Positions 132 to 15,063 of a stretch of 52,656 bases of DNA are shown piece after piece. The notes beneath the pieces are model-generated. The model was not told the DNA's origin, ran no database searches, and saw only the letters and a list, made by a program, of their open reading frames with translations. The DNA is from a virus, in the IMG/VR virus record IMGVR_UViG_3300031801_000001, positions 1-52,656 of that record; one strand, given 5' to 3'. The translations under genes were made by a program, and so were the position numbers. Each line of letters begins with the position of its first letter. Within the stretch, counting starts at the first letter, position 1.

Positions 132-152
132 CCCCCCTACCCCCCCCTACCC
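132..152 (-). other. G-quadruplex-capable G tract
   Basis: Read on the minus strand this is GGG-TA-GGGGGGGG-TA-GGGGGG, with four or more G runs separated by TA. It meets the usual sequence rule for an intramolecular G-quadruplex. It begins at the stop codon of the 152-427 gene, so it could act as an RNA or DNA structure at a transcript end. Function is inference. Confidence 0.45.
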
Positions 153-427
153 TATGTTTTGATTTTTGATACTAGCTTGAGGTTAGCCAAAGATTGATAA
201 TTATGCGCTTGCTTGTTGGCATCATCGCTTAGCCAAACGACTTCAACAACCCTGTGTTTATTATCCGAGCCCTCCCTCGCTGCGAGGGAGGGCTCGACGA
301 AGCCGTCCCTCGCCTGGAGCCGATATGGATTACCATAGCCAATCACGAAGCCGAGAAAGTTGTCTTGACCTAGCCAGGATACTAGATCTCCTACTTGAAT
401 CATTGGTTGAATCATTGGTTGAATCAT
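152..427 (-). CDS. SH3-like small protein with triplicated start
   Basis: A 91-aa member of the SH3-like family: VGDLVSW at the start, then GFVIGY and a VVEVVW strand. The N-terminus reads MIQPMIQPMIQ because a 12-bp unit carrying the start codon is repeated, so codons at 427, 415 and 403 could all initiate. An AGGT ribosome-binding site sits best for 427. The central loop is stretched by a GC-rich segment containing a perfect 15-bp inverted repeat (266-296). It follows the 431-616 gene by 3 nt in the same operon. Molecular function is unknown. Confidence 0.75.
   Translation of the reverse strand: MIQPMIQPMIQVGDLVSWLGQDNFLGFVIGYGNPYRLQARDGFVEPSLAAREGSDNKHRVVEVVWLSDDANKQAHNYQSLANLKLVSKIKT
266..296. 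repeat. perfect 15-bp inverted repeat inside a gene
   Basis: Two 15-base arms are exact reverse complements separated by one base. The sequence is GC-rich and built of GAGGG-like units. It lies in the variable loop of the 152-427 gene and adds whole codons without breaking the frame. It would form a strong hairpin in mRNA. Confidence 0.8.
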
Positions 428-430
428 GTT

Positions 431-616
431 CTACCTATTGCCTTTGCTTACTATACTGAGGGGGTTTACTTTTGGATCCCACTCTTTGGCTATGCCATGT
501 CCTGCCCAATTGATGCTTATAAGTTTATATTTTTCATTACCCTCGGTCGCAATTACCAAGCCAAAGTAGGTTCCAGACAAATTAGTATAGCTTATTAGAT
601 CTCCTACCTCAATCAT
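431..616 (-). CDS. SH3-like small protein
   Basis: A 61-aa compact example of the family with no loop insert: MIEVGDLISY, then FGLVIATEG, then the ISINW strand and the terminal SIVSKGNR. The ending resembles that of the upstream neighbour (ILSKGSR), which marks the two as close paralogs. The start at 616 is 3 nt after the preceding stop. Confidence 0.8.
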   Translation of the reverse strand: MIEVGDLISYTNLSGTYFGLVIATEGNEKYKLISINWAGHGIAKEWDPKVNPLSIVSKGNR

Positions 617-619
617 GGT

Positions 620-850
620 TTATCTACTACCTTTGCTTAATATCTTAATGCGTGTTAGGTTTACTGGAAAGCTTTTATTGAAGAATTTTCGGCTTTGTGG
701 ATCAACCCAATGAATTTTCATTCTTTTGTTTTCGTGGTAGCCCTCAAATCCTACCACCAACGCCATGTAGGTTGCTCGCTTAGCGGGTTCAAGTTGAGCA
801 GCAAAGGCGGGGCTCCACTCAATAAGATCCCCTAACTCAATCTCAATCAT
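620..850 (-). CDS. SH3-like small protein
   Basis: A 76-aa protein: MIEIELGDLIEW, MALVVGFEG and MKIHWVD match the three family strands. A longer frame exists upstream, but the internal ATG at 850 overlaps the preceding gene's stop (843-845) in the ATGA style used throughout the operon, so 850 is chosen. Confidence 0.78.
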   Translation of the reverse strand: MIEIELGDLIEWSPAFAAQLEPAKRATYMALVVGFEGYHENKRMKIHWVDPQSRKFFNKSFPVNLTRIKILSKGSR

Positions 851-1130
851 TTTCACCCTCGTTGAGTTCAACAATGTTCTCAAGTAGGCATGTTGAAGGC
901 AAAGATTCATCGCCAAGGGGCATCCACTGAATATGATAAGCTAACGCGCCGACGCGGCGGGCGAGGGGTCCGCATGGGGCGCGGTGCGGCGCACGACGTA
1001 GCAAGCTCGGTCGCTCCCCGGGCGCCCACGGTCTAACCTTAACAACCAATCCAAGATAACCCTCAAGTGGATCATCCTCAAGAATGGGATCAGCCCACTT
1101 AATCAAATCTCCTACCTTGATGGCTTTCAT
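843..1130 (-). CDS. SH3-like protein with GC-rich loop insert
   Basis: A 95-aa protein beginning MKAIKVGDLIKW and continuing LGLVVKV. An arginine, proline and alanine-rich stretch of about 30 residues (bases about 941-1030, very GC-rich) then precedes the YHIQW strand. The insert falls exactly where other members have a short turn. Its composition differs sharply from the flanking coding sequence. Confidence 0.75.
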   Translation of the reverse strand: MKAIKVGDLIKWADPILEDDPLEGYLGLVVKVRPWAPGERPSLLRRAPHRAPCGPLARRVGALAYHIQWMPLGDESLPSTCLLENIVELNEGEND

Positions 1131-1163
1131 TTTTGTAATTCACCTACCCAGATCTTAATGATT

Positions 1164-1370
1164 TTAGCTCTCGGAGACGATATCAATATGGAGGTGGCTG
1201 TAAAAGAGTGGAGGGCGAGTATCCCCCGCCCAGGCAACCTGAAGCGCGGCGGGGGCGGGTGGAGCGGCGGAGCCGCGCCGGGGCTGCACAGCGACAATCA
1301 GCCCCAACTTATTAAAGCCGGGATCGTTCTCGTGCAACATAATACCAACCACCAGATCTCCAACCTTCAC
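1164..1370 (-). CDS. SH3-like protein, GTG start
   Basis: A 68-aa protein: MKVGDLVVGI, LGLIVAVQ, a GC-rich Pro/Ala/Arg turn (bases about 1225-1290) and the ALQVAW strand. A longer frame from a TTG at 1442 exists but lacks a ribosome-binding site. GTG at 1370 has a GAGG motif upstream and lies one base after the stop of a small membrane-peptide gene, so translational coupling is likely. Confidence 0.65.
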   Translation of the reverse strand: MKVGDLVVGIMLHENDPGFNKLGLIVAVQPRRGSAAPPAPAALQVAWAGDTRPPLFYSHLHIDIVSES

Positions 1371-1371
1371 G

Positions 1372-1467
1372 TTAGCGCCCTCGGCGGCGGTGGGGGGATG
1401 GCGGCTCAGTACCTCGGAGATAAAGTCCAAAACCAGCGGCAATCAACAAACTCAATCCAATTTCCAT
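1372..1467 (-). CDS. small single-pass membrane peptide
   Basis: A 31-aa frame, MEIGLSLLIAAGFGLYLRG followed by a basic tail, forms a plausible transmembrane helix with a positively charged C-terminus. It has an AAGG motif 5' of the ATG and ends one base before the GTG of the next gene. The frame competes with the alternative long start of that gene. Function unknown. Confidence 0.4.
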   Translation of the reverse strand: MEIGLSLLIAAGFGLYLRGTEPPSPHRRRGR

Positions 1468-1476
1468 TACGCAACC

Positions 1477-1533: not shown

Positions 1534-1558
1534 AAATAGTTCAAGGATATGGTTTTAA

Positions 1559-1807: not shown

Positions 1808-2009
1808 AGTTAGGATTTTCTAGTTCTGGGGTCCAGTTCCACTCAACCACGGCATAAGCTTCTCGGTCAACGCCGGGTCCACCATGCTGCGGACGATCCT
1901 TGTCGTATGGATAGAACTCCAAAACCAACCCATCGTAAGAATAGCGAAAGGGGAGATCCCCAATCGAGCGTACAATCTGCACCTTATCACCAGGCTTAAA
2001 TTCCGTCAT
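1776..2009 (-). CDS. SH3-like small protein
   Basis: A 77-aa protein: MTEFKPGDKVQIV, YDGLVLEFYP, a polar loop, then AYAVVEW and the LERA terminus. Its ATG overlaps the last base of the VWA-metallopeptidase gene's stop, so it is probably cotranscribed with it from the promoter at 3309-3337. Confidence 0.75.
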   Translation of the reverse strand: MTEFKPGDKVQIVRSIGDLPFRYSYDGLVLEFYPYDKDRPQHGGPGVDREAYAVVEWNWTPELENPNYVRSRYLERA

Positions 2010-3286
2010 TAACTCTTATCCTCGATTGAAATAACCCGCTCGTTAGTCTGGAAATAAGGGTTGCGAGCATATTGCGCCGTCGTCATCCACATACGCTGCG
2101 CACGGCTCTTGATCGGCTTCGGAGCGCACATATCAGTCAAAATGATATGCCCGTCAAAGTCACGCTCGTTAACGTACTTAGTAGGAGGATCGAAGTCCGT
2201 CCCGCCGTACCGCACACGCTCCCAGGGGCGGGTTTCGCCCTTTTTCCAAACATACACGCTTTCGGTAGCCACTTCGGAATCAAATGGGATAACCGTGAAT
2301 TCTGCGAGGGTGGAAAGCTTATTTAACTCCGTGAAGAAAGCCGCCAGCATTCCATCGTCCACAGAACCGGACTGATCGATGCTGATAGCAATCTTAGCCT
2401 GCCGGTTAACCTTGCGTCCAGGGTGAATGTACGGGAACCGCTTATTGAGTCTGCGCACCGTTGAGGACTTGCTAGCCCGCTGCGAGCATTTAATGAAGTA
2501 CCTCAAAACTTTCTTCCAATCCACACGGGGAGTTAGTCGATCCATGATCGCTTGCCGGGTGCTGGCAGTAATAGTGCCCCAAGAATTGGACTTCTGAGCC
2601 TCGCCAGCGGCTTTCTGGATGATATCCTTAATCCGCTCTTTGGCGATCTCGTTGGCGGCGGAGGCGGCGGGCGAACCGTCCCCGCCCCAATCGTCGTGGG
2701 AATCAAACTGGTCGGAAGGGCAAGTGCAAGTGCCCTCGCCCCCTTCGCCACCGTCACCGCCACTCTGGCAGTCGCCGTTACACTCGCCCTCGCCCTCGCC
2801 ACCCGGATTCTCGGGGAGGCGATCTAGATACCATTCCGCAGCCTCGAAGGGCGGAAGGTCCGCAAACGGTCCCTGACCGGGCATCAAACAGCCCTCGGGC
2901 AAATTGGAAAGGTGCGAGTTGATCGCCAAGTCGGTAGCATAATTCCACTTCTTATGATCAACGCCCTCGGGCTTGCGTCCGGTGACGTGATCGAAAACGA
3001 GGTGGTAAAACTCATGCTTAAGCACGTCAGCTTTCTGAAGATCCGTCATCTTTGCGAAGAAATCAGGATTGTAGAGCAATTCAAACTGAGCAGTCGTCGG
3101 ATTGACCCGAACGCCGGCAGTCGGAATGCCCTTATAGGGTGCCTTGTTGACACGCCGACTAATTGCGGCGAAAAACGGCTCATTCATGAGCAGGCGTGCA
3201 ACGTGCATATTGAGGTTAAATTCATCCTCGGGCGCTGTGGGCGCTTCGGAAGTCTCGGGGGCGGGCGTGGTTTCAATGTCTGACAT
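2009..3286 (-). CDS. metallopeptidase-like VWA protein (DUF2201 type)
   Basis: A 425-aa protein. Residues about 25-200 form a zincin-like domain with HEFYH at 91-95 (HExxH). A low-complexity Gly/Glu/Cys linker follows (from CGCCCT-type repeats near 2750-2810), then a C-terminal von Willebrand A domain with the MIDAS motif DQSGS (304-308), a GGT loop and TDM. This architecture is the usual partner of MoxR-type AAA ATPases, and one is encoded at 6851-7942. The internal ATG at 3286 is chosen over a longer frame because AGGAAAGGA precedes it and the promoter start site falls near 3302. The pair probably remodels or matures a protein complex by ATP-driven chaperoning; the target is unknown. Confidence 0.85.
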   Translation of the reverse strand: MSDIETTPAPETSEAPTAPEDEFNLNMHVARLLMNEPFFAAISRRVNKAPYKGIPTAGVRVNPTTAQFELLYNPDFFAKMTDLQKADVLKHEFYHLVFDHVTGRKPEGVDHKKWNYATDLAINSHLSNLPEGCLMPGQGPFADLPPFEAAEWYLDRLPENPGGEGEGECNGDCQSGGDGGEGGEGTCTCPSDQFDSHDDWGGDGSPAASAANEIAKERIKDIIQKAAGEAQKSNSWGTITASTRQAIMDRLTPRVDWKKVLRYFIKCSQRASKSSTVRRLNKRFPYIHPGRKVNRQAKIAISIDQSGSVDDGMLAAFFTELNKLSTLAEFTVIPFDSEVATESVYVWKKGETRPWERVRYGGTDFDPPTKYVNERDFDGHIILTDMCAPKPIKSRAQRMWMTTAQYARNPYFQTNERVISIEDKS

Positions 3287-3308
3287 CGTGTTCCTTTCCT
3301 TCATACAT

Positions 3309-3337
3309 AATTTAAGTACGATCTCGGGGGTTGTCAA
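3309..3337 (-). promoter_or_regulatory. sigma70-like promoter
   Basis: -35 TTGACA (3332-3337), 17-nt spacer ending GATCGTACT, -10 TAAATT (3309-3314). It would start RNA near 3302 and drive the VWA-metallopeptidase operon. Confidence 0.8.
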
Positions 3338-3545: not shown

Positions 3546-3743
3546 TCAGATGACAATCAATTCATACTCATAAAAACTTACCTGATTCTCTTTAACAAGA
3601 ACATAATAAAAATCACTACCAGGAATTGTGTGTTTGATCCTTCTTATGACTAACCCTATTCTATTAGAGTGACAACCGTTCATATGTATAGATTTAATTC
3701 TTACAAGTGAACCGACCTTGATCTCTTTCTCTTTCTTCTCCAT
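3546..3743 (-). CDS. SH3-like small protein
   Basis: A 65-aa protein: EKEIKVGSLVRI, RIGLVIRRI, DFYYVLV, then the YEYELIVI end. Last gene of an AT-rich four-copy cluster (3546-4462) whose members share the MxETQxxIKxGSLVKI-type N-terminus, unlike the GC-rich copies at 0-2 kb. No gene is visible between 3338 and 3545. Confidence 0.75.
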   Translation of the reverse strand: MEKKEKEIKVGSLVRIKSIHMNGCHSNRIGLVIRRIKHTIPGSDFYYVLVKENQVSFYEYELIVI

Positions 3744-3757: not shown

Positions 3758-3860
3758 TTACAATTCTGGAAACAATTGATATTCTATTATGTAAGACACT
3801 TACTCAACAGTCTACTCTTGCCAAGTCTCCTACTCTTATTTCTTTTGTTGTCTCGGGCAT
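3758..3860 (-). pseudogene. degraded SH3-like paralog
   Basis: The frame starts MPETTKEIRVGDLARV, matching the N-terminus of its upstream neighbour, but stops after 18 codons. In another frame, just before 3758, a piece reading SYIIEYQLFPEL resembles the family C-terminus. The middle strands are missing, as expected from an internal deletion with frameshift. Confidence 0.5.
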
Positions 3861-3863
3861 AAG

Positions 3864-4046
3864 TTAACTCAACAGTTCAACGCCACTCTTAGCATAAAAT
3901 TGTTTCACTCCAGAAGTAAGCAAAACATAAAATGTATTTTTAAACTCAATAGTTTCTAACACAAGTCCAATCTCTCCCGAGTATACATAAAGTTCAGTTA
4001 TTTTCACTAATGAACCAACTTTAATATCTTTTTGTGTCTCGGGCAT
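3864..4046 (-). CDS. SH3-like small protein
   Basis: A 60-aa protein: MPETQKDIKVGSLVKI, IGLVLETI, FYVLLTSG, ending KSGVELLS. It is the closest intact relative of the degraded copy at 3758-3860 and follows the next upstream gene by 3 nt. Confidence 0.75.
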   Translation of the reverse strand: MPETQKDIKVGSLVKITELYVYSGEIGLVLETIEFKNTFYVLLTSGVKQFYAKSGVELLS

Positions 4047-4049: not shown

Positions 4050-4253
4050 TTAGCTCATAAACTCAAGTTCTTCGTTCTGAAACCATAGGCGCTCGTCATC
4101 AATCAAAACAATAAGTCCAGGGGGAGCAGCATCGCACCCAAATCCCATCACCAGTGCCAACGTGCCCACCCGATTCATATACTTAGTCACAGATGGTGAA
4201 TGTGTTATTTTCACAAGCGAACCAATCTTAATTTCTCTTTGTGTCTCGGACAC
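4050..4253 (-). CDS. SH3-like small protein
   Basis: A 67-aa protein: MSETQREIKIGSLVKI, TLALVMGFG, a CDAAPPG turn, LIVLIDDE and ENEELEFMS-like end. Its ATG overlaps the stop of the 4253-4462 gene. Confidence 0.75.
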   Translation of the reverse strand: MSETQREIKIGSLVKITHSPSVTKYMNRVGTLALVMGFGCDAAPPGLIVLIDDERLWFQNEELEFMS

Positions 4254-4462
4254 TATCGTTTCACTAGAGGGAAGAATTTAAGTCCACTAAGAGCAGTGCT
4301 GTGGTTGTATTTATTATAAGTATTTCTCCACCGTTCACTACCGGGTGAGGTCCACAATACACTAATCTCATCAGAGTCAACACTCAAAATCAAACCCCAA
4401 GCATAGGTGTGTGCAGTATATTCAGAACGCAGCAAATCACCAATCTTATAATGCCTCATCAC
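4253..4462 (-). CDS. SH3-like small protein
   Basis: A 69-aa protein: HYKIGDLLRSEY, WGLILSVDSD, EISVLWTS, then a longer basic tail. It shares one base with the end of the lipoprotein gene upstream, so it is translationally linked to it. Confidence 0.72.
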   Translation of the reverse strand: MMRHYKIGDLLRSEYTAHTYAWGLILSVDSDEISVLWTSPGSERWRNTYNKYNHSTALSGLKFFPLVKR

Positions 4463-5059: not shown

Positions 5060-5728
5060 CTAAACACCCTTGACGATCTTAAGCTGCCGCTCCTCGACGG
5101 TAACCATTTTAGTTCCGCCGAACGGTAGCACCTTATACTTCTTTGCGCCCTTCGCCGCACTTGTAACGGGAGAAGCATCAGACTGAATCACGATCCCTCG
5201 CCAGCCAGCTACAAAGAAAGTTTTGAGTCCAGGCGAGCGTGCGGGAACCCGTAGCTCGACAACCGCACCATCCTTGAAAAGAGGCGGACCGTGGACGCCA
5301 GCTAGCACCTTGGCGGCGTACTTGTTGCCGCACATAGCCTTGTAAGCCTTCTCAGTCGGCACAAAGTCAGGATCCGTCAGGACACGATCTGCGAGATCGG
5401 AGAAATATGGAGGATTTGCCTTGTAAAACGAAGCGCAGATCTTAGCGATTTTACGCTCGGGATCACCATAGCTCGCCTTCCAAGTCGCTGAAGAGGCGAG
5501 GGCAGCAGCAGAAAACTTTTGCTCATTCTTGACGAAGATATCAAATTGGCGCTGAGTCAAACCGCCATATTTATTGAATCCCTCAAGAATCGAAGTAGAG
5601 AAATTGCGAGTCCAATCGTCAACGTGAGGATTGTCCCTCAGCGCCTCAATACGAGCCTTGAGGGCGTCGCTCTTAAGGTGCGCAGACTTCTCAACCGGCG
5701 TGCGACGACGGTAACCGTAATAACTCAT
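5060..5728 (-). CDS. unknown protein, paralog of 27656-28435
   Basis: A 222-aa basic protein. The last about 25 residues (KYKVLPFGGTKMVTVEE) are nearly the same as the end of the protein at 27656-28435, and both have a central helical IAxICAxxY segment and a strand-rich GAVVELR / GSIVEFR section. The pair therefore defines one family with an SH3-like C-terminal part. The start at 5728 gives a TAATG junction with the upstream 54-aa gene; a longer frame is rejected for that reason. Its first residues (MSYYGYRRR) recall the zinc-knuckle protein at 10634-11356. Function unknown. Confidence 0.7.
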   Translation of the reverse strand: MSYYGYRRRTPVEKSAHLKSDALKARIEALRDNPHVDDWTRNFSTSILEGFNKYGGLTQRQFDIFVKNEQKFSAAALASSATWKASYGDPERKIAKICASFYKANPPYFSDLADRVLTDPDFVPTEKAYKAMCGNKYAAKVLAGVHGPPLFKDGAVVELRVPARSPGLKTFFVAGWRGIVIQSDASPVTSAAKGAKKYKVLPFGGTKMVTVEERQLKIVKGV

Positions 5729-5892
5729 TAATTGTTGTCCTGAGCCGAAAGGCGACAAACATTCTTATTGAACTGACGCAACGAGCGGGAGAACGCCTTG
5801 CGGGCGTACTTGTAATCCACACCCGAACAATGGCGGCGTTCAATCTTTGCGATGTTAGCCTCGGAACGGGCTTTGGCGAGTTTGCTATCCAT
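5728..5892 (-). CDS. small basic protein
   Basis: A 54-aa frame, strongly basic (MDSKLAKARSEANIAKIERR, then a KAFSRSLRQFNKN helix). A GGGAGGA ribosome-binding site lies in front, and its stop overlaps the next gene's ATG. It is the first gene behind the promoter at 5919-5947. A nucleic-acid or acidic-protein-binding role is possible from charge alone. Confidence 0.7.
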   Translation of the reverse strand: MDSKLAKARSEANIAKIERRHCSGVDYKYARKAFSRSLRQFNKNVCRLSAQDNN

Positions 5893-5963: not shown

Positions 5964-6197
5964 TTATTCAATCTTGATCAAATGGTTTTCAATTTCATAA
6001 TTGATCGAGCCACCTTGCCAAAGAATATTAAATCCCCGGCGGTTGTCGTAGTCGGCGCGGCAAACGATGATCAAGCCGATTCCCTTAGTTTTCATAAATT
6101 TCACCACACGCTCAGCGTCATTATCAAAGACAATGTTGAGCGCATCGGCATCGTAAACGACGGTATCGCCAACGTTGATCGTGCTACTCTCCCTCAC
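5964..6197 (-). CDS. SH3-like protein, leaderless GTG start
   Basis: A 77-aa protein: STINVGDTVVYD, GIGLIIVCR, FNILWQGG, ending ENHLIKIE. The only usable start is GTG at 6197, six bases after the -10 box at 6204-6209, so the mRNA should begin at the start codon itself. No upstream ribosome-binding site is possible with that promoter. Confidence 0.7.
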   Translation of the reverse strand: MRESSTINVGDTVVYDADALNIVFDNDAERVVKFMKTKGIGLIIVCRADYDNRRGFNILWQGGSINYEIENHLIKIE

Positions 6198-6251: not shown

Positions 6252-6488
6252 TTAGATCTCGACAAGAAAATCTGTGTACTCCCAATAAATCTTTCCGTTC
6301 CAAAGAACTTCAACCCAATTATTAGTGAGCCCAGGGCGAGGAGGGCGAGGGCGAGGGCGAGGAAGGCGAGGGAGAGGGAACCGGAGGCGCTGGCGTCGGA
6401 CCGGCTCCGTCAAAACCAATCCACAACCAAACTCTTTCGTGTCGTCTTCAAAGCATTTAGGATTGAATTCAACCAGATTACCAATCAC
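6252..6488 (-). CDS. SH3-like protein with Pro/Arg hexamer tract
   Basis: A 78-aa protein: MIGNLVEFN, FGCGLVLTEP, a PR-rich segment of about 26 residues, then NWVEVLWNG and DFLVEI. It belongs to a close four-gene group with 8414-8665, 9429-9671 and 11805-12053, which differ mainly in the tract. Its 3' end and downstream flank are nearly the same as those of the 9429 copy. ATGA overlap with the gene upstream. Confidence 0.78.
   Translation of the reverse strand: MIGNLVEFNPKCFEDDTKEFGCGLVLTEPVRRQRLRFPLPRLPRPRPRPPRPGLTNNWVEVLWNGKIYWEYTDFLVEI
6330..6400. repeat. GC-rich GAGGGC hexamer tract
   Basis: Imperfect tandem units of the GAGGGC/GCGAGG type on the plus strand, coding for Pro-Arg on the minus strand. 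The total length stays a multiple of three. It sits between the second and third SH3-like strands. Confidence 0.8.
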
Positions 6489-6775
6489 GAAACAACCTCA
6501 AGATTACAGCACCACTCCAAAGTTTCAACTCCGATCTGCCACAGGACTTTTATGCTACGACAGGAAAGTCTTATCTCGTGGCGGGGTCCGTCCCTAACAA
6601 ACCTTTCAACGTTCCGAAGATCATCGAACATCCAAAGTCGAGGCTCAGAAAGTGCCAAGCCATGTTGGGGAAGCAAAACGGTCGAATAAATTACAGTATC
6701 ACCGTACCTATAGGGATGGAGAAATTCAAGACTCTTTGCACGTTTCGACCACGTTACCAAATTACCGGGTTGCAT
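6485..6775 (-). CDS. SH3-like protein, divergent
   Basis: A 96-aa protein starting MQPGNLVTWS, with a long polar middle and a SIKVLWQIG strand before CCNLEVVS. ATG 6775 is preceded by GAGGG at good spacing; a TTG at 6790 is the only longer start. It follows moxR after a GC-rich hairpin, so expression may depend on read-through. Confidence 0.65.
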   Translation of the reverse strand: MQPGNLVTWSKRAKSLEFLHPYRYGDTVIYSTVLLPQHGLALSEPRLWMFDDLRNVERFVRDGPRHEIRLSCRSIKVLWQIGVETLEWCCNLEVVS

Positions 6776-6798
6776 GATTATTTCCCTCAAAGAAAGGT

Positions 6799-8214: not shown

Positions 8215-8421
8215 TTAGTTATCCTCGGGTAGTTTCCACCGGCGCTCTTGGCGCAGATACAGGAACGAGCGAAGATCCCAAGCGAAAGCGAGGGCAATGA
8301 TCGTTCCGCCGATGAGTAGCCCCAAAGATGAGGTAGGTTCAAGGATCAGAATTCCAACGGCACAACCAACTAGAAAGTTATCCAAATATTTGCTACAAAA
8401 CTCTCGTACAAAATTAATCAC
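8215..8421 (-). CDS. small membrane protein
   Basis: A 68-aa protein: a short amphipathic N-terminus, then two hydrophobic stretches (FLVGCAVGILILE and GLLIGGTIIALAFAWDL) and a basic tail. Probably two transmembrane helices in a hairpin. Its ATG overlaps the end of the 8414-8665 gene. Holin-like topology is possible, but nothing else supports it. Confidence 0.65.
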   Translation of the reverse strand: MINFVREFCSKYLDNFLVGCAVGILILEPTSSLGLLIGGTIIALAFAWDLRSFLYLRQERRWKLPEDN

Positions 8422-8665
8422 TTTCTACCCCAACTACATAATCAACGTACTCGCAAAAAACCTTGCCATCCCAAAGGACTTCAACCCAATTATCGGTGGG
8501 GCGAGGGCGAGGGAACCGAGGGCGAGGGTGAGGGTGAGGGTGCCACCGAGGGCGAAGGCGAAGGCGAGGGCGAGGGCTTGGCTCCGTCAAAACCAATCCA
8601 CAACCAAACTCTTTCATATCACCCTCAAAATATTTACAGTTGTACTGTACAAGCCTGCCGATCAC
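8414..8665 (-). CDS. SH3-like protein with Pro/Arg/His tract
   Basis: An 83-aa protein from GTG 8665: MIGRLVQYN, FGCGLVLTEPS, a PR/PH tract, then NWVEVLWDG. The GTG start is supported because the same residues begin the sister proteins and because 8665 lies 5 nt past the stop of the zinc-knuckle gene. About 59 bp around 8449-8507 are identical to 11835-11893 in another copy, which implies very recent duplication or gene conversion. Confidence 0.75.
   Translation of the reverse strand: MIGRLVQYNCKYFEGDMKEFGCGLVLTEPSPRPRLRLRPRWHPHPHPRPRFPRPRPTDNWVEVLWDGKVFCEYVDYVVGVESD
8497..8580. repeat. GC-rich GAGGGC/GAGGGT hexamer tract
   Basis: Tandem imperfect hexamers on the plus strand, interrupted by GGAACC and TGCCACC. 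It encodes alternating Pro with Arg or His on the minus strand. The flanks are nearly identical to those of the 11885-11966 tract, yet the order of units differs. Confidence 0.82.
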
Positions 8666-8669
8666 GATT

Positions 8670-9350
8670 TTACTTCCGCTTAAAAAGTTTATCAACCGGA
8701 GCCGTATCGTTGACGAAACCTGCCGGGGGGGCAAAAGGTGTGGAAGAGGGAGAAACGATATCAATAAGCGCCTCTCCGCACGCCGCCCAGCTTCCCTTGA
8801 TCAAAACCGTCTCGCCATCCATTCCGAACATATCCGGGGGATCGATAGATACTTTCCGATCAAAACGGATCATTTCCCTAGCTTTAAAAAGGCGCACCTT
8901 GCCGCCAGAAAGAGCCGCCGTGCAAAAATCCCAATGAATACCAGTCAAGAAAAACAGGCGATCATTGCCAGCGTGGTCCCATCCGTGCTGCGGCATCTTA
9001 ACCAAAGCACCGGGACCGATCCCATCACGCTCAAGGCACGCCACAAAGTCAGCACGCCACTTACGGCTAGCAGCCAAATGCGCAATCTTATCACTCTTGA
9101 GCCGCTTGCAAGTGCGCCGGTTATGCCCGGTGGCTTTATTCCGATCTTTCCAATCTAGCACGAGGACACAGTAGGAGCATTTGCGGGGGGCACGATCATT
9201 CTTTCGCTGGATTGCTTTCTCTGCGCCATAATCCCACTCAACCTCGCCACTCTCAAGTTTGCGGACCCGCTCCAAAAGGGAGGGGCACGTCGCCCGGTTA
9301 TGTCCGGTGGCACTACAATTGCTACAACGGCTTGGGTAGCGAAAACTCAT
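8670..9350 (-). CDS. zinc-knuckle protein, copy 1
   Basis: A 226-aa protein with an N-terminal CCHC knuckle, C-S-N-C-x4-H-N-R-A-T-C (C-x2-C-x4-H-x4-C), and a second longer KCSYC ... GHNRRTC site near residues 60-80. A middle part follows with the GIGPGALVKMPQ motif. The conserved C-terminus contains DMFGMDG and a PPAGFVNDTAPVD segment. CCHC knuckles usually bind single-stranded nucleic acid. Three paralogs (9682, 10634 and plus-strand 12921) share all these blocks. It has its own promoter and is followed by an SH3-like gene. Confidence 0.78.
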   Translation of the reverse strand: MSFRYPSRCSNCSATGHNRATCPSLLERVRKLESGEVEWDYGAEKAIQRKNDRAPRKCSYCVLVLDWKDRNKATGHNRRTCKRLKSDKIAHLAASRKWRADFVACLERDGIGPGALVKMPQHGWDHAGNDRLFFLTGIHWDFCTAALSGGKVRLFKAREMIRFDRKVSIDPPDMFGMDGETVLIKGSWAACGEALIDIVSPSSTPFAPPAGFVNDTAPVDKLFKRK

Positions 9351-9408: not shown

Positions 9409-9428
9409 GGGGTTAAATTGAATTCTTT

Positions 9429-9671
9429 TTAGATCTCGACAAGAAAATCTACAAACTCCCAATAAATCTTTCCGTTCCAAAGAACTTTAACCCAATTGTC
9501 AGTAGGGTGAGGGTGAGGAAGGCGAGGGCGAGGGTGAGGGAGAAGGCGAGGGTGAGGGTGAGGGCGAGGGACCGGGCGAGGGCTTGGCTCCGTCAGAACC
9601 AATCCACAACCAAACCCTTTTATATCACCCTCAAAATATTTACAGTTGTACTGTACAAGCCTGCCGATCAC
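9429..9671 (-). CDS. SH3-like protein with Pro/His/Arg tract
   Basis: An 80-aa protein from GTG 9671: MIGRLVQYN, GCGLVLTEPS, tract, NWVKVLWNG, DFLVEI. It starts 11 nt after the zinc-knuckle stop. Its 5' part matches the 8414 copy almost base for base, while its 3' part and downstream DNA match the 6252 copy. It therefore looks like a recombinant of the two. Confidence 0.75.
   Translation of the reverse strand: MIGRLVQYNCKYFEGDIKGFGCGLVLTEPSPRPVPRPHPHPRLLPHPRPRLPHPHPTDNWVKVLWNGKIYWEFVDFLVEI
9503..9584. repeat. GC-rich GAGGGT/GAGGGC hexamer tract
   Basis: Imperfect hexamers on the plus strand, richer in GAGGGT (His codons on the minus strand) than the other three tracts. Confidence 0.82.
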
Positions 9672-9681
9672 GATCCGACCC

Positions 9682-10347
9682 CTAAACTGTGAAAAACTCT
9701 TCAACGGGCGTCGGGTCATCAACAAACCCAACCGGGGGAATAAACGTCAGTTTAGATGGCGAAGCAACCTTGATGTTGCTAGCGCCGCAATCGAGGCTGC
9801 TCATTTTGGTTAGCGGAGTTACGCCGTCCATACCGAACATATCAGGAAGGGCAATACTGGTCGTGCGATGGAATTTATCCATCGAGCGGACCGTCAAAGC
9901 GATAATCTTATTTTTAGCCTGCTCAGGCGTGCAACGATCCCACAAAAGATCGACCGCAAAGTAGAGCATAGAACCCTGAGGTTCTGCCGAACGGGGAACC
10001 CTAATCAAAGCACCGGGACCGATCCCGTCACGCTCAAGGGCATTCAGGAAATCACCACGCCAAGTACGAAATTCCGCCAGCTTGGTAACCTTATCACTCT
10101 TGAGTCGCTTGCAAGTGCGCCGGTTATGACCTGACGCAAGCTCGCGCCAGTCGAGGAAGCGGGTGCAATAAGAGCATTTATTCGGGCGTCTCCCCGCCTT
10201 TCGGCGGATCGCTTGCGAGGCACTATAATCATAATCGATTTCGCCACTCTCAAGTTTGCGGACCCGCTCTTTGAGTTCGGGGCACGTTGTCCGGTTATGC
10301 CCGGTGGTATCACAATTGCCGCAACGACTTGGATAACGAAAGCTCAT
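9682..10347 (-). CDS. zinc-knuckle protein, copy 2
   Basis: A 221-aa protein. The N-terminal knuckle is C-G-N-C-D-T-T-G-H-N-R-T-T-C, and a second site reads KCSYC ... SGHNRRTC. GIGPGALIRVP, DMFGMDG and a PPVGFVDDPTPVEEFF end follow. It is closest to copy 1 in the N-terminus. The leader is about 22 nt, as in copies 1 and 3, so the three units share promoter geometry as well as coding sequence. Confidence 0.78.
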   Translation of the reverse strand: MSFRYPSRCGNCDTTGHNRTTCPELKERVRKLESGEIDYDYSASQAIRRKAGRRPNKCSYCTRFLDWRELASGHNRRTCKRLKSDKVTKLAEFRTWRGDFLNALERDGIGPGALIRVPRSAEPQGSMLYFAVDLLWDRCTPEQAKNKIIALTVRSMDKFHRTTSIALPDMFGMDGVTPLTKMSSLDCGASNIKVASPSKLTFIPPVGFVDDPTPVEEFFTV

Positions 10348-10441: not shown

Positions 10442-10630
10442 TCACGGTCGAAGCTTGGATGCAATTTCAAGTTCCTTGCTGGAAAATTCACATTCATTTT
10501 CCTCGCCAGAAACCCACGTTACCAAATAAGATGTGCGAACCATATCATTTACCACTTCACGGACCACGCCAAGATCAGAGCGGGTGGCATTATAGCAAAT
10601 GAACGTTACCAAATCTCCAACCTCAATCAT
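10442..10630 (-). CDS. SH3-like small protein
   Basis: A 62-aa protein: MIEVGDLVTFI, DLGVVREVV, SYLVTWVSG, KELEIASK. Unlike the SH3 partners of zinc-knuckle copies 1 and 2 it has no GC-rich tract. Starts 3 nt after zinc-knuckle copy 3. Confidence 0.78.
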   Translation of the reverse strand: MIEVGDLVTFICYNATRSDLGVVREVVNDMVRTSYLVTWVSGEENECEFSSKELEIASKLRP

Positions 10631-10633: not shown

Positions 10634-11356
10634 TTACTTCTTGAGATCGAAAATTGCCTTAACCGGCGCAGGATCATCATAAAATTCCTCAGGAACTTCA
10701 AACTCCAAAGTCGAAGGACTAGCAATGCTCCACTTGCTCTCGCCAAATTCCCGCCACTGCTCCCTGGTCAATTCAGTCTTGCCGTCCATTCCCAAAAGGT
10801 CAGGAGTACCCACGGTGCAACGCTGATTAAACTCAGTCATAGCTCGACCTTCAAAAATAGCGTTGCGGGGGTTCCCGATCCGAGAATATAGGCAATGTTC
10901 CCACTTGATTTTATCAAGGAAATAAAGCTTCGACGGGCGGTGATAACGAGATTTTGGATCGTCAAGATCCTCGCCAATCCACTTAATGATCGCGCCGGGA
11001 CCGAGCCCCTCACGTTTCAGAACCCTTACGAAATCCTTGCGCCAAGCCGTATTCCTTTTAATATCCTCAGCTAAATCAACCTTGAGGGTGGCGCAACTTC
11101 GGCGGTTATGCCCGATAGCCTTGTGCTGGTCATCATAATCGAGGATGCAACGGCAGTAGCTACATTTACGCTTGATTGTCGCATTCTTACGGCGGATCTT
11201 GCGCTCTTTCTCGCAGGTAGCGGCGTAATCGTATTCAACCTCGCCCTCGTCAAGCTTGCGGATCCGCTCAGTCATTGTAGGGCAAGTTGTCCTGTTATGT
11301 CCCTTGTCGAAACAAATTCCACAACGGGGGCGGCGGCGACCACTATAATAACTCAC
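10634..11356 (-). CDS. zinc-knuckle protein, copy 3
   Basis: A 240-aa protein, the longest minus-strand copy. It starts MSYYSGRRRPRCGICF; the first knuckle is C-G-I-C-x4-H-N-R-T-T-C and the second reads KCSYCRC ... GHNRRSC. The spacer between them is highly charged. GLGPGAIIKW, DLLGMDG and a VPEEFYDDPAPVKAIFD end follow. It is more diverged from copies 1 and 2 than they are from each other. Confidence 0.78.
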   Translation of the reverse strand: MSYYSGRRRPRCGICFDKGHNRTTCPTMTERIRKLDEGEVEYDYAATCEKERKIRRKNATIKRKCSYCRCILDYDDQHKAIGHNRRSCATLKVDLAEDIKRNTAWRKDFVRVLKREGLGPGAIIKWIGEDLDDPKSRYHRPSKLYFLDKIKWEHCLYSRIGNPRNAIFEGRAMTEFNQRCTVGTPDLLGMDGKTELTREQWREFGESKWSIASPSTLEFEVPEEFYDDPAPVKAIFDLKK

Positions 11357-11604: not shown

Positions 11605-11808
11605 TTATAGCATCTTAAAGCAATTAGATGGAATTGTAAATGACTTCCCGCCGTTTACATAAATTCTGTAAAGTTTTGTTCCTCTTCTCCCAATTTTAAC
11701 TTCTTCAATGATTACACAGAGAACACCTGAATTAATCTTTGGATATCGTCCCTCAAGGCTAGGCGTTAGAGGAATAGGAACATTAAATTCAACCAATTTT
11801 TCGATCAT
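11605..11808 (-). CDS. small protein, distant SH3-like member
   Basis: A 67-aa protein from ATG 11808, which overlaps the upstream stop as ATGA. It begins MIEKLVEFN like the MIGKLVQFN group, then GVLCVIIEEV and LYRIYVNGG. The turn between strands is short and no GC tract is present. Confidence 0.6.
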   Translation of the reverse strand: MIEKLVEFNVPIPLTPSLEGRYPKINSGVLCVIIEEVKIGRRGTKLYRIYVNGGKSFTIPSNCFKML

Positions 11809-12053
11809 TCTTTGATCTCGGCAAGATAATTTGCGTACTCGCAAAAAACCTTGCCATCCCAAAGGACTTCAACCCAATTATCGGTGGGGCGAGGTCGACC
11901 CTGGTGAGAGCGAGGGCGAGGGCGAGGGCGAGGGTGGAGGCGAGGGCGAGGGAGAAGGAGAGGGCTTGGCTCCGTCAAAACCAATCCACAACCAAACTCT
12001 TTCATATCACCCTCAAAAAACTTGGAATTGAACTGAACAAGCTTGCCGATCAT
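11805..12053 (-). CDS. SH3-like protein with Pro/Arg tract
   Basis: An 82-aa protein: MIGKLVQFN, FGCGLVLTEPS, tract, NWVEVLWDG, NYLAEIKE. ATG 12053 has a GGAGGAAAG site; the longer frame would begin upstream of the predicted transcription start and is excluded. Confidence 0.78.
   Translation of the reverse strand: MIGKLVQFNSKFFEGDMKEFGCGLVLTEPSPLLLPRPRLHPRPRPRPRSHQGRPRPTDNWVEVLWDGKVFCEYANYLAEIKE
11885..11966. repeat. GC-rich GAGGGC hexamer tract
   Basis: Imperfect hexamers on the plus strand preceded by GAGGTCGACCCTGG, a palindromic interruption not seen in the other tracts. Flanks match 8497-8580. Confidence 0.8.
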
Positions 12054-12068
12054 CTTTCCTCCACCCAT

Positions 12069-12097
12069 AATATAAGCACCCTCAACCCCAAAGTCAA
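12069..12097 (-). promoter_or_regulatory. sigma70-like promoter, left arm of divergent pair
   Basis: -35 TTGACT (12092-12097), 17-nt spacer, -10 TATATT (12069-12074). Start near 12062. It lacks the GATCGTACT spacer end seen in the other left-arm promoters. Confidence 0.72.
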
Positions 12098-12124
12098 GAG
12101 GGCAAATCAAAAAACTTTATAAAA

Positions 12125-12206: not shown

Positions 12207-12225
12207 AAAAAGATCATTTAACCTC

Positions 12226-12253: not shown

Positions 12254-12259
12254 ATAGAG

Positions 12260-12475
12260 GTGACAAGTGTAACCAATGATTATCTAAAAAATGGCACCCT
12301 TGTTCGGTGGCATAACGATTTCATTACAAAAGACCTACCTATAAAATCATATCTTGGCACCGTTCTTAATGTACGCGCAACGGAAGGAGGGCTTCCTGAA
12401 TATAAAATCTTATGGGCTGTCGATGGTAGAATTGACTGGACTAATTCGATCTCGGAATATGAGATTGTAGCATGA
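12260..12475 (+). CDS. SH3-like protein, leaderless GTG start
   Basis: A 71-aa protein: KNGTLVRWHND, YLGTVLNV, YKILWAVDG, then SEYEIVA. Closest to the next gene (VLVRWHNNE, YLGLVVD), so the two are tandem copies. No in-frame alternative start lies between the GTG and the conserved core. Confidence 0.75.
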   Translation: MTSVTNDYLKNGTLVRWHNDFITKDLPIKSYLGTVLNVRATEGGLPEYKILWAVDGRIDWTNSISEYEIVA

Positions 12476-12669
12476 ACCAAAAATATAAGATCGGTGTTCT
12501 CGTTCGATGGCACAATAACGAACTAAGTGAAGATCTACCCGACGATTCATATCTCGGCTTGGTTGTTGATACGGAAAACTCTTTAGGCAATCCTGACATT
12601 AAAGTTCTTTGGAATGATGGACTTTCTTCATGGTGTTATGCTGACGGGGATTTTGAGATTTTGTCGTGA
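12472..12669 (+). CDS. SH3-like small protein
   Basis: A 65-aa protein: YKIGVLVRWHNN, YLGLVVDTE, IKVLWNDG, DGDFEILS. ATGA overlap with the gene before and GTGA overlap with the gene after. Confidence 0.8.
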   Translation: MNQKYKIGVLVRWHNNELSEDLPDDSYLGLVVDTENSLGNPDIKVLWNDGLSSWCYADGDFEILS

Positions 12670-12809
12670 GCAATAAAATCAAAGTTGGGGATCTTGTCTC
12701 AAGTCTAGATAATTCAAGTGCGCGAGTTCTTTGGAACGATGGAAAAATTAGTTATATCTGGTCAGATGAGGATTTGTTAAGCCCAAATTACGAACTTTTA
12801 GTCCCTTGA
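12666..12809 (+). CDS. minimal SH3-like protein
   Basis: A 47-aa frame from GTG: MSNKIKVGDLVSS, then ARVLWNDGKIS and DEDLLSP. The GLV strand found in full-length members is missing, so about 15-20 residues of the core are deleted. The coupled GTGA start suggests it is still translated. The next promoter's -35 box lies in its last codons. Confidence 0.6.
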   Translation: MSNKIKVGDLVSSLDNSSARVLWNDGKISYIWSDEDLLSPNYELLVP

Positions 12810-12834: not shown

Positions 12835-12840
12835 ATACAC

Positions 12841-12921
12841 ATGGAAGAAACATTTTCACTTTTTACTTTTTTCATTGTCCTCGGAACATTTTGGTTCGAG
12901 TTGACTCAGGAAGATAACTAA
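12841..12921 (+). CDS. 26-aa membrane peptide, leaderless
   Basis: MEETFSLFTFFIVLGTFWFE then a polar tail: one hydrophobic helix with acidic ends. Its TAA overlaps the ATG of the zinc-knuckle gene (TAATG), so it may also serve as a translation-coupling leader for that gene. Confidence 0.6.
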   Translation: MEETFSLFTFFIVLGTFWFELTQEDN

Positions 12922-13616
12922 TGCGTTGTTCTTATTGCTGGAATCGTGAAGGTCATAACCGGCTTGGATGCCCGAAACGAAAAGCAATTATTATTGCCAA
13001 CCCTGACGGGTGGGAAGCAACTAGGGAAGCCCAACGACAAACTGCACTCACGAAGCGCAAATGCTCTTATTGCCGAAAGGTTACCCGGCAAGGGACCGAA
13101 AAAGAGCAAGCAAGCGCATTTGGGCACAACCGACGTAGCTGCAAAAAACTCGCAACTGCCTCTGCAAAAGCCAAAAAGCTTTGCCGTAAGTGGCGACAAG
13201 ATCTTAAAGATACCTGCAAAACGGAAGGCGTAGGAGTGGGTGCGTTACTTAGCGTTCCTCAAGATGAATGGTCTAATAATGGAGAATACACACCCACTAG
13301 GAGACTATTGCTCGTAACGGGAATCAGCTTTACAACATGGGATCATCAAGAGCTTAACCACGAAAGCGCAAATACAGATATGAGGTGCAATCCCTGGATT
13401 ATTCAAGGACGATGGGTTCACAACAACCAAAAAGGATCTTCCAAATTTCCAAAACTTATTCATTCTGATTATGAAAGTGGATTTCTACTTTCTGAGGCAA
13501 GCAAAAGCCATTTTGGTTCAGAAGGATGTACAATTGTAGCCCCATCTAAGGGAGAGCTTGGCTTTACCGATAGCTGGATCAACGATGAAAAAGCGGTTGA
13601 TCATCTTTTCAGGTAG
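12921..13616 (+). CDS. zinc-knuckle protein, copy 4 (plus strand)
   Basis: A 231-aa protein: C-S-Y-C-W-N-R-E-G-H-N-R-L-G-C knuckle, then KCSYCRK ... GHNRRSC, GVGVGALLSVPQ, a longer diverged middle and the IVAPSKGELGF ... DEKAVDHLF end. The DxxGMDG block of the minus-strand copies is absent. It is AT-richer than they are, so it is an older or separately acquired copy. It again precedes SH3-like genes. Confidence 0.75.
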   Translation: MRCSYCWNREGHNRLGCPKRKAIIIANPDGWEATREAQRQTALTKRKCSYCRKVTRQGTEKEQASAFGHNRRSCKKLATASAKAKKLCRKWRQDLKDTCKTEGVGVGALLSVPQDEWSNNGEYTPTRRLLLVTGISFTTWDHQELNHESANTDMRCNPWIIQGRWVHNNQKGSSKFPKLIHSDYESGFLLSEASKSHFGSEGCTIVAPSKGELGFTDSWINDEKAVDHLFR

Positions 13617-13686
13617 AATTAACGGAAAAATCGTTTGGCTCAACCGATCAAGTTTTAAGGTTTTGGAAAACGACCCAAATCAGTAA
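13597..13686 (+). CDS. possible 29-aa peptide
   Basis: A TTG-started frame, GRINGKIVWLNRSSFKVLE, resembles the C-terminal strands of SH3-like proteins. Its TAA overlaps the next ATG (TAATG). It may be a remnant or a real minimal gene. Confidence 0.35.
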   Translation: MIIFSGRINGKIVWLNRSSFKVLENDPNQ

Positions 13687-13907
13687 TGCGCAAAATCCCT
13701 AACAAATCCGAACTTTCCTACAGTGGTCTAATCGTGGGAGATCTCGTATACGCATACGATCCTGAGGATGATGCAATTGCTAACGGGGATAGGGGTATTA
13801 TTATTGAGTTGATTGAAGAAGTTGATGCGGTTCAAGTTCATTGGACTCGCCGGAAAGAAGTTAAGGCTGAGAGTTGTGAAAATCTTTATTGTCCTCGATT
13901 GAATTAG
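13686..13907 (+). CDS. SH3-like small protein
   Basis: A 73-aa protein: LIVGDLVYAY, DRGIIIELI, AVQVHWTRR, ENLYCPRLN. The acidic turn DPEDDAIANGD replaces the usual short loop before the second strand. Confidence 0.75.
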   Translation: MRKIPNKSELSYSGLIVGDLVYAYDPEDDAIANGDRGIIIELIEEVDAVQVHWTRRKEVKAESCENLYCPRLN

Positions 13908-13910
13908 CTG

Positions 13911-14108
13911 ATGAAAAATTTGTTAAAGATTGGTTCAATTATTGAATATTCTGTTAATGACGCTCCCGTAGATGTTGGAATCGTCATTAACCAAACCGCA
14001 ATAAACAACGAATTTGCAGTATGGAGAGTGTGGTTTGCGGCAGGGGAAAAGTTTCATTATATCAACGAAACTTGGTTTTACGAACGCTACCGTTTGATTC
14101 AAAAATAG
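13911..14108 (+). CDS. SH3-like small protein
   Basis: A 65-aa protein: LLKIGSIIEY, DVGIVINQT, VWRVWFAAG, then an aromatic tail. Its stop codon lies inside the 51-bp direct repeat that starts at 14105. Confidence 0.72.
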   Translation: MKNLLKIGSIIEYSVNDAPVDVGIVINQTAINNEFAVWRVWFAAGEKFHYINETWFYERYRLIQK

Positions 14109-14341
14109 GTTTTTGATTTTATGTCTCGCGAAAAATTCAAGGTTGGTCAGTTAGTTAGACATCGTAGTTGGAGTTATGGCTTTGGATTAGTTATTGGTTT
14201 TGACCACGACGGAGATCCGACAATTGCGTGGAATAGTGGAGAAACTTCTTCAGAGTGGTATTCTCACGTTTTAATTGTTTCAGATATTTCATAGGTTTTT
14301 GATTTTATGTCTCGCGAAAAATTCAAGGTTGGTCAGTTAGT
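14105..14341 (+). repeat. 51-bp exact direct repeat
   Basis: Bases 14105-14155 recur exactly at 14291-14341. Each copy holds the end of one gene, the untranslated spacer, the ATG and the first 12 codons of the next gene. Downstream of the repeat the two genes are unrelated at base level. A weaker version of the spacer (TAGGGTTTTGGATTTT) recurs near 14528. Confidence 0.9.
14121..14294 (+). CDS. SH3-like small protein
   Basis: A 57-aa protein: MSREKFKVGQLVRHRS, GFGLVIGFD, PTIAWNSG, then VLIVSDIS. Its first 11 residues are encoded by the 51-bp repeat and match the next gene's exactly. Confidence 0.75.
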   Translation: MSREKFKVGQLVRHRSWSYGFGLVIGFDHDGDPTIAWNSGETSSEWYSHVLIVSDIS

Positions 14342-14531
14342 GCGTTTTCCAGCGAATCGCTGGAAATTTCTAGCGAAAGATAATAAACGTAATTACGATA
14401 AAATTGAATCATTAATTGGTTTAGTTGTAAGACTCAGAAAGCCTGACAATGCTCCAGTTGTTTTTTGGAATAATGAAAGAACTTATCAAGCGGATCCATA
14501 CGCCATTGAAGTTATCTCAGACGTTCCATAG
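14307..14531 (+). CDS. SH3-like small protein
   Basis: A 74-aa protein: MSREKFKVGQLVRF, a basic insert, LIGLVVRLR, PVVFWNNE, IEVISDVP. The shared N-terminus and different body, compared with 14121-14294, point to duplication followed by divergence or to domain swapping at the repeat. Confidence 0.78.
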   Translation: MSREKFKVGQLVRFPANRWKFLAKDNKRNYDKIESLIGLVVRLRKPDNAPVVFWNNERTYQADPYAIEVISDVP

Positions 14532-14542
14532 GGTTTTGGATT

Positions 14543-14728
14543 TTGGAAAAAATTAAAGTTGGAGCTTTGGTTAAAATTACCACTGCAACAGACTGGTTTG
14601 GGATTTGCATTGTTTTGGAAATTCATGAGAAAAGCGGGGCAGCGTGGATGAAGCATCCAACAGCAAAAATCTGGACAAAGCACGGAATTCGTCATAAGAT
14701 TGTGCAAGATTTAGAACTTGTTAGATAA
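14543..14728 (+). CDS. SH3-like protein, TTG start
   Basis: A 61-aa protein: MEKIKVGALVKI, FGICIVLEIH, GAAWMKH, QDLELVR. TTG at 14543 is the only start near the conserved core and sits in the same spacer context as the ATG of the two preceding genes. Confidence 0.68.
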   Translation: MEKIKVGALVKITTATDWFGICIVLEIHEKSGAAWMKHPTAKIWTKHGIRHKIVQDLELVR

Positions 14729-14891
14729 TAAATTCAAGGTTGGAGATCTTATTGTTGGAAACATCAAACAATACAAATTATTTATTTGGGATGAAGATGA
14801 ATTCAATTATTATGTTGTTGATGTTGAAAATTCGTTGAAACAATGGATTATGTTTAAGTCCTTGACAGATGATAGCTATGAAAAAATCTAA
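14718..14891 (+). CDS. SH3-like protein, TTG start, divergent
   Basis: A 57-aa frame: MLDNKFKVGDLIVGNI, then YKLFIWDED and YYVVDVEN. It overlaps the previous gene by 11 nt and the next by 14 nt. The G-L-V strand is replaced by a different sequence, so the fold assignment is weaker. Confidence 0.55.
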   Translation: MLDNKFKVGDLIVGNIKQYKLFIWDEDEFNYYVVDVENSLKQWIMFKSLTDDSYEKI

Positions 14892-15063
14892 GTTTAAAAT
14901 TGGTGACTTGGTTGTCTACGATGCAAATAAAACCACAATATGGGAAAGAGAAAAGCAACTTATTGGAATAATAATTGAAACGTTCATCAAAACAAGTCTT
15001 ATTTACTGGAACAACCGAAAAAGACATCACGAACATAACGATTACCTAAAAGTTATCTCATAA
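14878..15063 (+). CDS. SH3-like small protein
   Basis: A 61-aa protein: MKKSKFKIGDLVVYDA, LIGIIIETF, SLIYWNNR, DYLKVIS. Last gene of the plus-strand block; it meets dnaJ tail to tail with no space. An ATG at 14869 would add three residues. Confidence 0.75.
   Translation: MKKSKFKIGDLVVYDANKTTIWEREKQLIGIIIETFIKTSLIYWNNRKRHHEHNDYLKVIS

Follow-up and report, generated by a model that had tools for sequence, protein, structure and literature searches.

A cassette island of small SH3-like genes in a large uncultured phage lineage and its probable turnover at coding junctions

Gene content of the island

The viral record IMGVR_UViG_3300031801_000001 from IMG/VR comprises 52,656 bases, and this whole stretch is referred to here as the window. 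Its first 15 kb hold an island of tiny genes, called cassettes in the following, which encode small proteins with a predicted SH3-like fold. Most of these genes surround two larger ones, encoding a DUF2201/VWA protein and a MoxR-like ATPase. An initial annotation, made from the DNA letters, had counted about 33 such proteins, most of them before 15 kb. This estimate was right: a profile built from an external pool of 2,092 distinct cassettes, all from outside the window, recovered 30 window open reading frames (ORFs) at E<=0.01, 26 of these before 15.1 kb, together with two weaker ones (11805-12110, E 0.014; 14718-14891, E 0.037); the top shuffled ORF reached 8.1 bits. The ORFs at 26823-27041 and 47588-47803 received no support from this profile, and 11605-11862 was marginally unsupported (E 0.17). 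Gene strings on both strands, GC-rich and AT-rich versions and a decayed copy, all described in that annotation, were found again, with a strand switch near 12.1-12.26 kb and a per-gene GC content of 26-60%.

On the minus strand, the island opens with a run of cassettes at 152-427 (91 amino acids; E 6.7e-6 with the external-pool profile, as for all cassettes below), 431-616 (61 amino acids; E 1.7e-5, leave-one-out 2.4e-6), 620-850 (76 amino acids; E 6.2e-5), 843-1130 (95 amino acids, GC 53%; E 8.6e-8), 1164-1442 (GC 60%; E 4.2e-8), 1559-1807 (GC 54%; E 1.1e-7) and 1776-2009 (E 0.0027). It is followed by the first syntenic anchor of the island, the DUF2201 VWA gene for a putative metallopeptidase (2009-3337, minus strand; Pfam 1.6e-21 and synteny). 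Further minus-strand cassettes lie at 3546-3743 (E 3.4e-9), 3864-4046 (E 2.2e-9), 4050-4253 (E 6.7e-5; repeats D10 and D13), 4253-4462 (E 2.5e-6), 5964-6197 (E 6e-4), 6252-6488 (with a Pro/Arg-rich insert, repeat family D2/D3; E 1e-5) and 6485-6790 (E 1.7e-4). The decayed copy stands among them at 3804-3860, on the same strand; it keeps the full N-terminus, MPETTKEIRVGDLARVDC, and is truncated by a stop after 18 codons. The second syntenic anchor, the MoxR-like AAA ATPase gene, occupies 6851-7942 (minus strand; Pfam AAA_5 4.9e-9). A 232-amino-acid protein encoded at 5060-5758 (minus strand) is a paralogue of the product of 27656-28435 (minus strand). Both share the C-terminus KKYKVLPFGxTKM, which may be a diverged SH3-like domain (weak match of 5060-5758, E 0.07); Pfam and PHROG searches gave no match for the pair.

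Between 8414 and 12056, on the minus strand, members of a four-paralogue family of zinc-knuckle genes alternate with Pro/Arg-rich SH3-like genes, in part as a duplicated two-gene unit. A GC-rich hexanucleotide repeat, now degenerate, makes up the Pro/Arg insert. The Pro/Arg-rich copies are located at 8414-8668 (E 0.0033; 82% DNA identity to 9428-9674, repeat D1), 9429-9674 (E 3.7e-5) and 11805-12056 (E 0.014; 81% DNA identity to 8422-8668), and a further cassette lies at 10442-10630 (E 2.8e-9). The zinc-knuckle genes are found at 8670-9350 (weak zf-CCHC_2 match, 0.0036; repeats D5, D8 and D9), at 9682-10347 as a paralogue of the former, at 10634-11356 (zf-CCHC_2 0.006) and, on the plus strand, at 12921-13616, the fourth paralogue being recognized by blastp to relatives.

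The plus-strand cassettes are situated at 12260-12475 (E 4.4e-6), 12472-12669 (E 2e-11; 4-nt ATGA overlap with the upstream gene), 12666-12809 (47 amino acids, possibly internally deleted; E 8e-6), 13686-13907 (E 3.8e-6), 13911-14108 (E 0.0075), 14121-14294 (E 4.4e-10; weak YccV-like Pfam match, 9.2e-5), 14307-14531 (E 2.1e-10), 14543-14728 (E 4e-6), 14718-14891 (marginal, GC 26%) and 14869-15063 (E 6.2e-12). The cassette at 14121-14294 lies between the two plus-strand copies of a 51-nt exact direct repeat (D12; 14105-14155 and 14291-14341). Outside the island, SH3-like genes were found on the minus strand at 27438-27659 (E 8.8e-6), 40095-40277 (E 1.2e-4), 51810-52085 (E 5.2e-11) and 52329-52520 (E 0.009).

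About eleven similar sigma-70-type promoters (TTGAC, ~17 nt, TWWATTATA) between 3309 and 12834 each head a gene group, on both strands, and promoter-like sites in the window number 45 compared with 19.7 +/- 4.8 in shuffled sequences. Some recent duplication is visible in the window: in the Pro/Arg-rich SH3 quartet, three members share 81-82% DNA identity and the fourth has ~57-59% protein identity, and the 14121/14307 pair is a recent true duplicate.

A family of predicted SH3-like barrels

Leave-one-out profiles regained 15 of 17 seed proteins at E<=0.002 and the other two at E 0.014 and 0.26, with shuffled ORFs peaking at ~15 bits, and an iterated profile over ten records collected ~170 members with zero decoys at E<0.01. 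One family was recovered from the seeds as well as from cassettes outside the window. The SH3-like nature proposed at the outset was borne out by the external-pool profile together with AlphaFold2 models, which gave a common barrel for two divergent members. For 12472-12666, a 104-sequence alignment led to a five-stranded barrel (predicted local distance difference test, pLDDT, 81; predicted template modelling score, pTM, 0.67). The Pro/Arg-rich protein 9432-9674 was modelled as a similar barrel (pLDDT 77, pTM 0.65), in which the Pro/Arg loop lies between strands two and three with low confidence.

PDB matches of the barrel model were nearly all Tudor/KOW/chromo/SH3-like barrels with Z ~7-7.8, values below 8 being weak by themselves, and included the UvrD Tudor domain bound to RNA polymerase. 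The A2 profile matched the KOW domains of Spt5 (E 1.5e-4) and NusG (E 1.5e-3) and was also weakly similar to the KOW domain of ribosomal uL24; single members weakly reached KOW, DUF1918 and MIB_HERC2. The predicted fold of the family is thus a Tudor/KOW/SH3-like five-stranded barrel. Each protein consists of 50-95 amino acids with one barrel, no ORF carries two SH3 domains, and the interiors are highly diverse (A2 mean column identity 17%).

Single-sequence searches with a window protein found no viral relatives, and scans of the members with Pfam, PHROGs, NCBIfam and PADLOC returned scattered weak SH3-like matches or none; PADLOC, which mainly covers defence and not anti-defence proteins, gave no telling match. 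An identity with YccV/HspQ (PF08755) was rejected, as 1 of 104 members matched over 34 of 101 positions.

The phage lineage and its arrays

Read from the ORF translations, the window encodes DnaB, a ribonucleotide reductase-like protein, Pol III alpha, PurA, IMP dehydrogenase, dUTPase, ClpP, GroEL and a DnaJ-like protein; DnaB was confirmed by profile and GroEL by similarity. A megablast search of the window against 50,697 phage records gave no match, and the SH3-like array matched cultured phages neither at the DNA nor at the protein level. Since no Pol III alpha in cultured phage records exceeds 30% identity to that of the window, no annotated neighbour phage was usable for comparison. Viral contigs yielded 74 Pol III alpha relatives with 55-69% identity; several lie on contigs 147-186 kb long, and their synteny to the window is clear. 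The window is thus a piece of a large, uncultured and presumably mostly marine phage lineage without a close cultured relative; the label marine follows from the samples and the sources of metagenome-assembled genomes (MAGs).

The MoxR-like ATPase has 133 relatives in viral contigs. SH3-like genes reach a density of 7.6 per 10 kb near MoxR relatives (80 loci) compared with 0.6 near Pol III alpha, and 60 of the 80 MoxR loci hold at least five. Over 2,000 distinct cassettes were gathered from the lineage, with a maximum per record of 39 (G010, mostly inside 8.2 kb). Arrays of tiny SH3-like genes, 20-40 per genome, regularly occupy the island beside the MoxR-VWA pair in this lineage.

A coding junction between cassettes

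In the relatives, adjacent genes overlap by 14 nt inside a conserved stretch of ~33 nt with the consensus TGGAGGTNATCAGTGAAAGTCGGTGATTTGGTA, and this overlap with the next gene was present in 551 of 1289 genes. The upstream frame of the junction reads L-E-V-I-S-E-S-R-stop, and the downstream frame has a GTG or ATG start followed by K-V-G-D-L-V. GGAGGT, formed by the Glu-Val codons and the preceding base, is positioned as a putative Shine-Dalgarno sequence, so that the upstream gene harbours both the next start codon and the ribosome-binding site in its terminal part. A degenerate pattern of the junction matched at least 120 stretches in viral contigs, and among the matches listed an SH3-like ORF stood on both sides in 148 of 166 occurrences.

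Relative to the Gly codon, conservation among 840 distinct junctions extends from position -21 to position +11, and the information content is near zero in the interior. Genes that precede a junction gene end in SR in 74% of cases, compared with 9% otherwise, and the Val codon of the junction is GTC in 78% versus 45%. Taken together, the extent of conservation, the junction-bound SR tail and the GTC preference fit a DNA-level element beyond protein constraint alone.

The window has local equivalents: the 51-nt repeat around 14121-14294, the common 5' end of the cassettes starting at 3864 and 4050, and the truncated copy at 3804-3860. Its gene ends mostly show short, mainly 4-nt, overlaps or gaps of 3-12 nt. 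Array loci with at least 8 members in the relatives use a single strand (113/113), whereas the window island uses both.

Cassette turnover in relatives

Comparison of related loci shows gain, loss, replacement and reordering of entire cassettes among close relatives, with the breakpoints at the junctions, and shows that ordinary genes keep their neighbours. The loci L149 and L152, whose flanks are 99.5-100% identical, differ by the gain or loss of one cassette, and the 20-nt repeat ATGAAAGTCGGTGATTTGGT lies at the breakpoint. Between L201 and L218 one cassette was replaced, the replacement being 92% identical to another L201 cassette a few genes along, and the pairs L261/L263 and L279/L291 show further events of the same whole-cassette kind. 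Over 26 differences, 90 breakpoints were scored, and 81 of them fell no further than 31 nt from the start of a cassette, where 30 were expected; this count stems from a dense-array test, which replaced an earlier, diluted sparse-anchor test. The indels bear shared repeats of 20-42 nt at their ends.

The flanks of shared genes point in the same direction. At 88-98% identity, 124 of 154 flanks of shared cassettes were non-homologous but only 1 of 17 flanks of other genes, and at 98-100% identity the counts were 34 of 329 cassette flanks and 0 of 134 flanks of other genes. A second data set comprised 80 distinct contigs; here, broken flanks at 88-98% identity amounted to 53/84 for SH3 genes versus 13/72 for others (P 9e-9). 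Cassettes are shared by 131 contig pairs, and their neighbours mostly differ below 98% identity. Among 1,714 cassettes in the relatives, only 4 within-contig pairs were at least 80% identical. The scarcity of such duplicates and the differing neighbours in the 131 pairs argue that exchange and reshuffling dominate, and the repertoire appears to change mainly through exchange of old, diverged cassettes. Of the initial suggestion, the density and a changing repertoire are thus supported by the profile counts and the cassette turnover in relatives; the ongoing duplication it invoked does not hold as the main mechanism, although the quartet and the 14121/14307 pair are recent window duplicates.

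The ratio of non-synonymous to synonymous substitution (dN/dS) was 0.13-0.25 over 262 same-length pairs. Such strong purifying selection argues that the cassettes are functional proteins and not hypermutating. A RecA-family recombinase is encoded in 6 of 7 relatives and a RecT-type annealase in none. Neither a tyrosine recombinase (PF00589) nor a reverse transcriptase (RVT_1) was found in 8 records, which included fragments. Hypermutation and a diversity-generating retroelement were rejected on the lack of RVT_1 in these records and the low dN/dS (a template/variable repeat pair was not searched directly), and an integron was rejected on the lack of the tyrosine recombinase IntI in them.

Discussion

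We consider it probable that the region in the window is a cassette island of a lineage whose members swap, gain and lose whole cassettes at coding junctions. Each cassette would encode a single-domain SH3-like (Tudor/KOW-type) barrel protein of 50-95 amino acids under purifying selection, and in the relatives the cassettes are chained head-to-tail by the ~33-nt junction, which unites a protein end, a ribosome-binding site and the next start. Any two cassettes chained in this way would therefore be homologous at both ends, and recombination at these ends would yield an intact, translationally coupled array. General homologous recombination, for which the lineage encodes a RecA/UvsX-type recombinase, would be the simplest mechanism of exchange, and the window array, equipped with local junction repeats alone, would turn over likewise.

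Some observations weigh against this interpretation. The 33-nt junction is absent from the window, even with up to 3 mismatches allowed, and the searches turned up no close relative of this record; we therefore only infer that its own cassettes are shuffled. At 98-100% identity, just 2/125 cassette flanks were broken in the second set of contigs versus 0/199 flanks of other genes (P 0.15), and contig pairs are not independent observations, which makes the P values indicative. Breakpoints at gene ends are equally expected from selection against broken genes, and the barrel fold is common to many functions.

This last-but-one point leads to a fairly unlikely account in which a small gene family undergoes ordinary birth and death alongside general phage mosaicism, recombinants with broken genes are lost, and the junction is no more than what packed genes usually have as ribosome-binding site, start and stop. 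Overlaps are indeed frequent among packed phage genes, the strands that open and close the barrel (KVGDLV, LEVIS) are conserved and so force similar DNA, and some window copies are plain duplicates. However, the conservation exceeds the protein, as seen in the GTC preference, the SR tail and the purine-rich site read as Glu-Val. Neither the repeats shared by indel ends nor the rarity of recent within-contig duplicates fits well with it, and other genes in the same loci retain their neighbours at equal identity. The weak similarity to the KOW domains of Spt5, NusG and uL24, together with the RNA polymerase-bound Tudor domain of UvrD among the fold matches, would suit a family made for dosage or redundancy, with near-equivalent nucleic-acid-, ribosome- or RNA polymerase-binding barrels produced in bulk and membership hardly mattering. 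Purifying selection on such diverse interiors suggests distinct roles instead, and we regard this explanation as unlikely.

A true repertoire-diversifying system, comparable to the cassettes of antigenic variation and driven by a dedicated mechanism that goes beyond general recombination, would accommodate the intra-array replacement between L201 and L218 and the cassette pools that different samples have in common in other orders. Since reverse transcriptase and tyrosine recombinase were not found and substitution is purifying rather than diversifying, this seems decidedly unlikely. The sequences all come from metagenomes, and the many recurrences of the junction in each genome could have led to misassembly at the repeats. 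But independent assemblies are identical over 13,010 nt with 8 cassettes (L166/L202, 100%) and agree over 11 cassettes (L150/L189), the flanks of 98-100% identical cassettes are concordant in 295 of 329 cases, and the ~33-nt junction repeat is shorter than the usual assembly k-mers, leaving an assembly artefact highly improbable.

For the function of the proteins, the most likely reading is that they are host-directed binders of RNA polymerase, the ribosome, nucleic acids or defence proteins. We give it about an even chance, because of the fold, the host-type promoters, the island position and the purifying selection on diverse members. The proteins would be expressed early from the repeated sigma-70-type promoters, and reshuffling would thereby alter the host-interaction repertoire. 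It is a more tentative proposal, with somewhat less than an even chance, that the arrays constitute a self-concatenating system in which one junction supplies both protein termini and the ribosome-binding site and at the same time serves for recombination. If true, phages could build and continually reshuffle large repertoires of single-domain binders aimed at the machinery or the defences of the host, and the arrays would be the viral equivalent of variable repertoires based on cassettes.

The closest parallel is the ninR region of lambda with the lambdoid boundary sequences, where small interlinked genes have stop/start overlaps and a ribosome-binding site inside the upstream gene, and modules are exchanged by homologous recombination at short homologies. 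Relaxed homologous recombination has been described for lambdoid phages, including a nin region (PMC3945230). The relatives of the window resemble this arrangement in their small-gene chains, with start and ribosome-binding site in the upstream gene, and in the exchange of modules at the boundary. In contrast to the unrelated linked genes of nin regions, the arrays consist of one diverged family with 20-40 copies per genome, and the junction encodes the N- and C-termini of this same family. Integron gene cassettes and the silent cassettes of antigenic variation are likewise arrays of exchangeable small coding units with shared end sequences; here, however, the junction is coding sequence, no integrase was found, and no distinction between silent and expressed copies was seen.

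T4 MotB, an early, DNA-binding product of a non-essential region, has a predicted N-terminal KOW/SH3-like domain (PMC7827196). Whereas MotB combines its predicted KOW domain with an OB fold and forms no array, the cassettes are arrayed and single-domain, and a MotB-type architecture was rejected for these proteins of 50-95 amino acids, which have one barrel and no OB-fold domain after KOW. The KOW/Tudor domains of NusG, Spt5 and UvrD are the same small barrel with weak profile similarity, but they belong to larger cellular proteins, and no conserved functional motif has been demonstrated in the cassettes. The second Foldseek match, SPbeta YorP from Bacillus subtilis (PDB 2heq), is also a small stand-alone SH3-like protein and a prophage gene product; it is not known to form an array. 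No account of SH3-like arrays in phages emerged from our search of open-licence papers. Relative to the known systems, the distinguishing feature is an array of a single family that is joined through the coding ends of its own members.

Large phages hold many tiny genes of obscure role, and more than 2,000 of them here reduce to one fold and one assembly rule, which predicts repertoire change between close relatives. The junction is a simple DNA signature for locating further arrays, and if the proteins bind host targets, a comparison of cassette content with host range would be a direct route to them.

Several additional observations were made. A 722-amino-acid protein of the window (19273-21441, minus strand) carries several metal-binding motifs of the MopE type, has a C-terminus resembling VWA and is conserved in relatives. 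In G002, a contig of 185.9 kb, each end holds a copy of a duplicated two-gene SH3 unit (L097, 63-447; L106, 5502-5889); the genome may be circular, which would make the units adjacent. CP070664 (L384), labelled as the bacterial chromosome of a candidate WOR-3 MAG, contains an SH3-like array and a Pol III alpha with 63% identity to that of the window; a phage genome either inserted there in the manner of a prophage or was mis-joined. The contig NHDW01000006.1 (L383; 305,838 bases) of a Methylococcaceae MAG contains the SH3 junction, and the same MAG encodes a Pol III alpha with 40% identity, possibly on this contig, so that a jumbo phage may have been binned into it.

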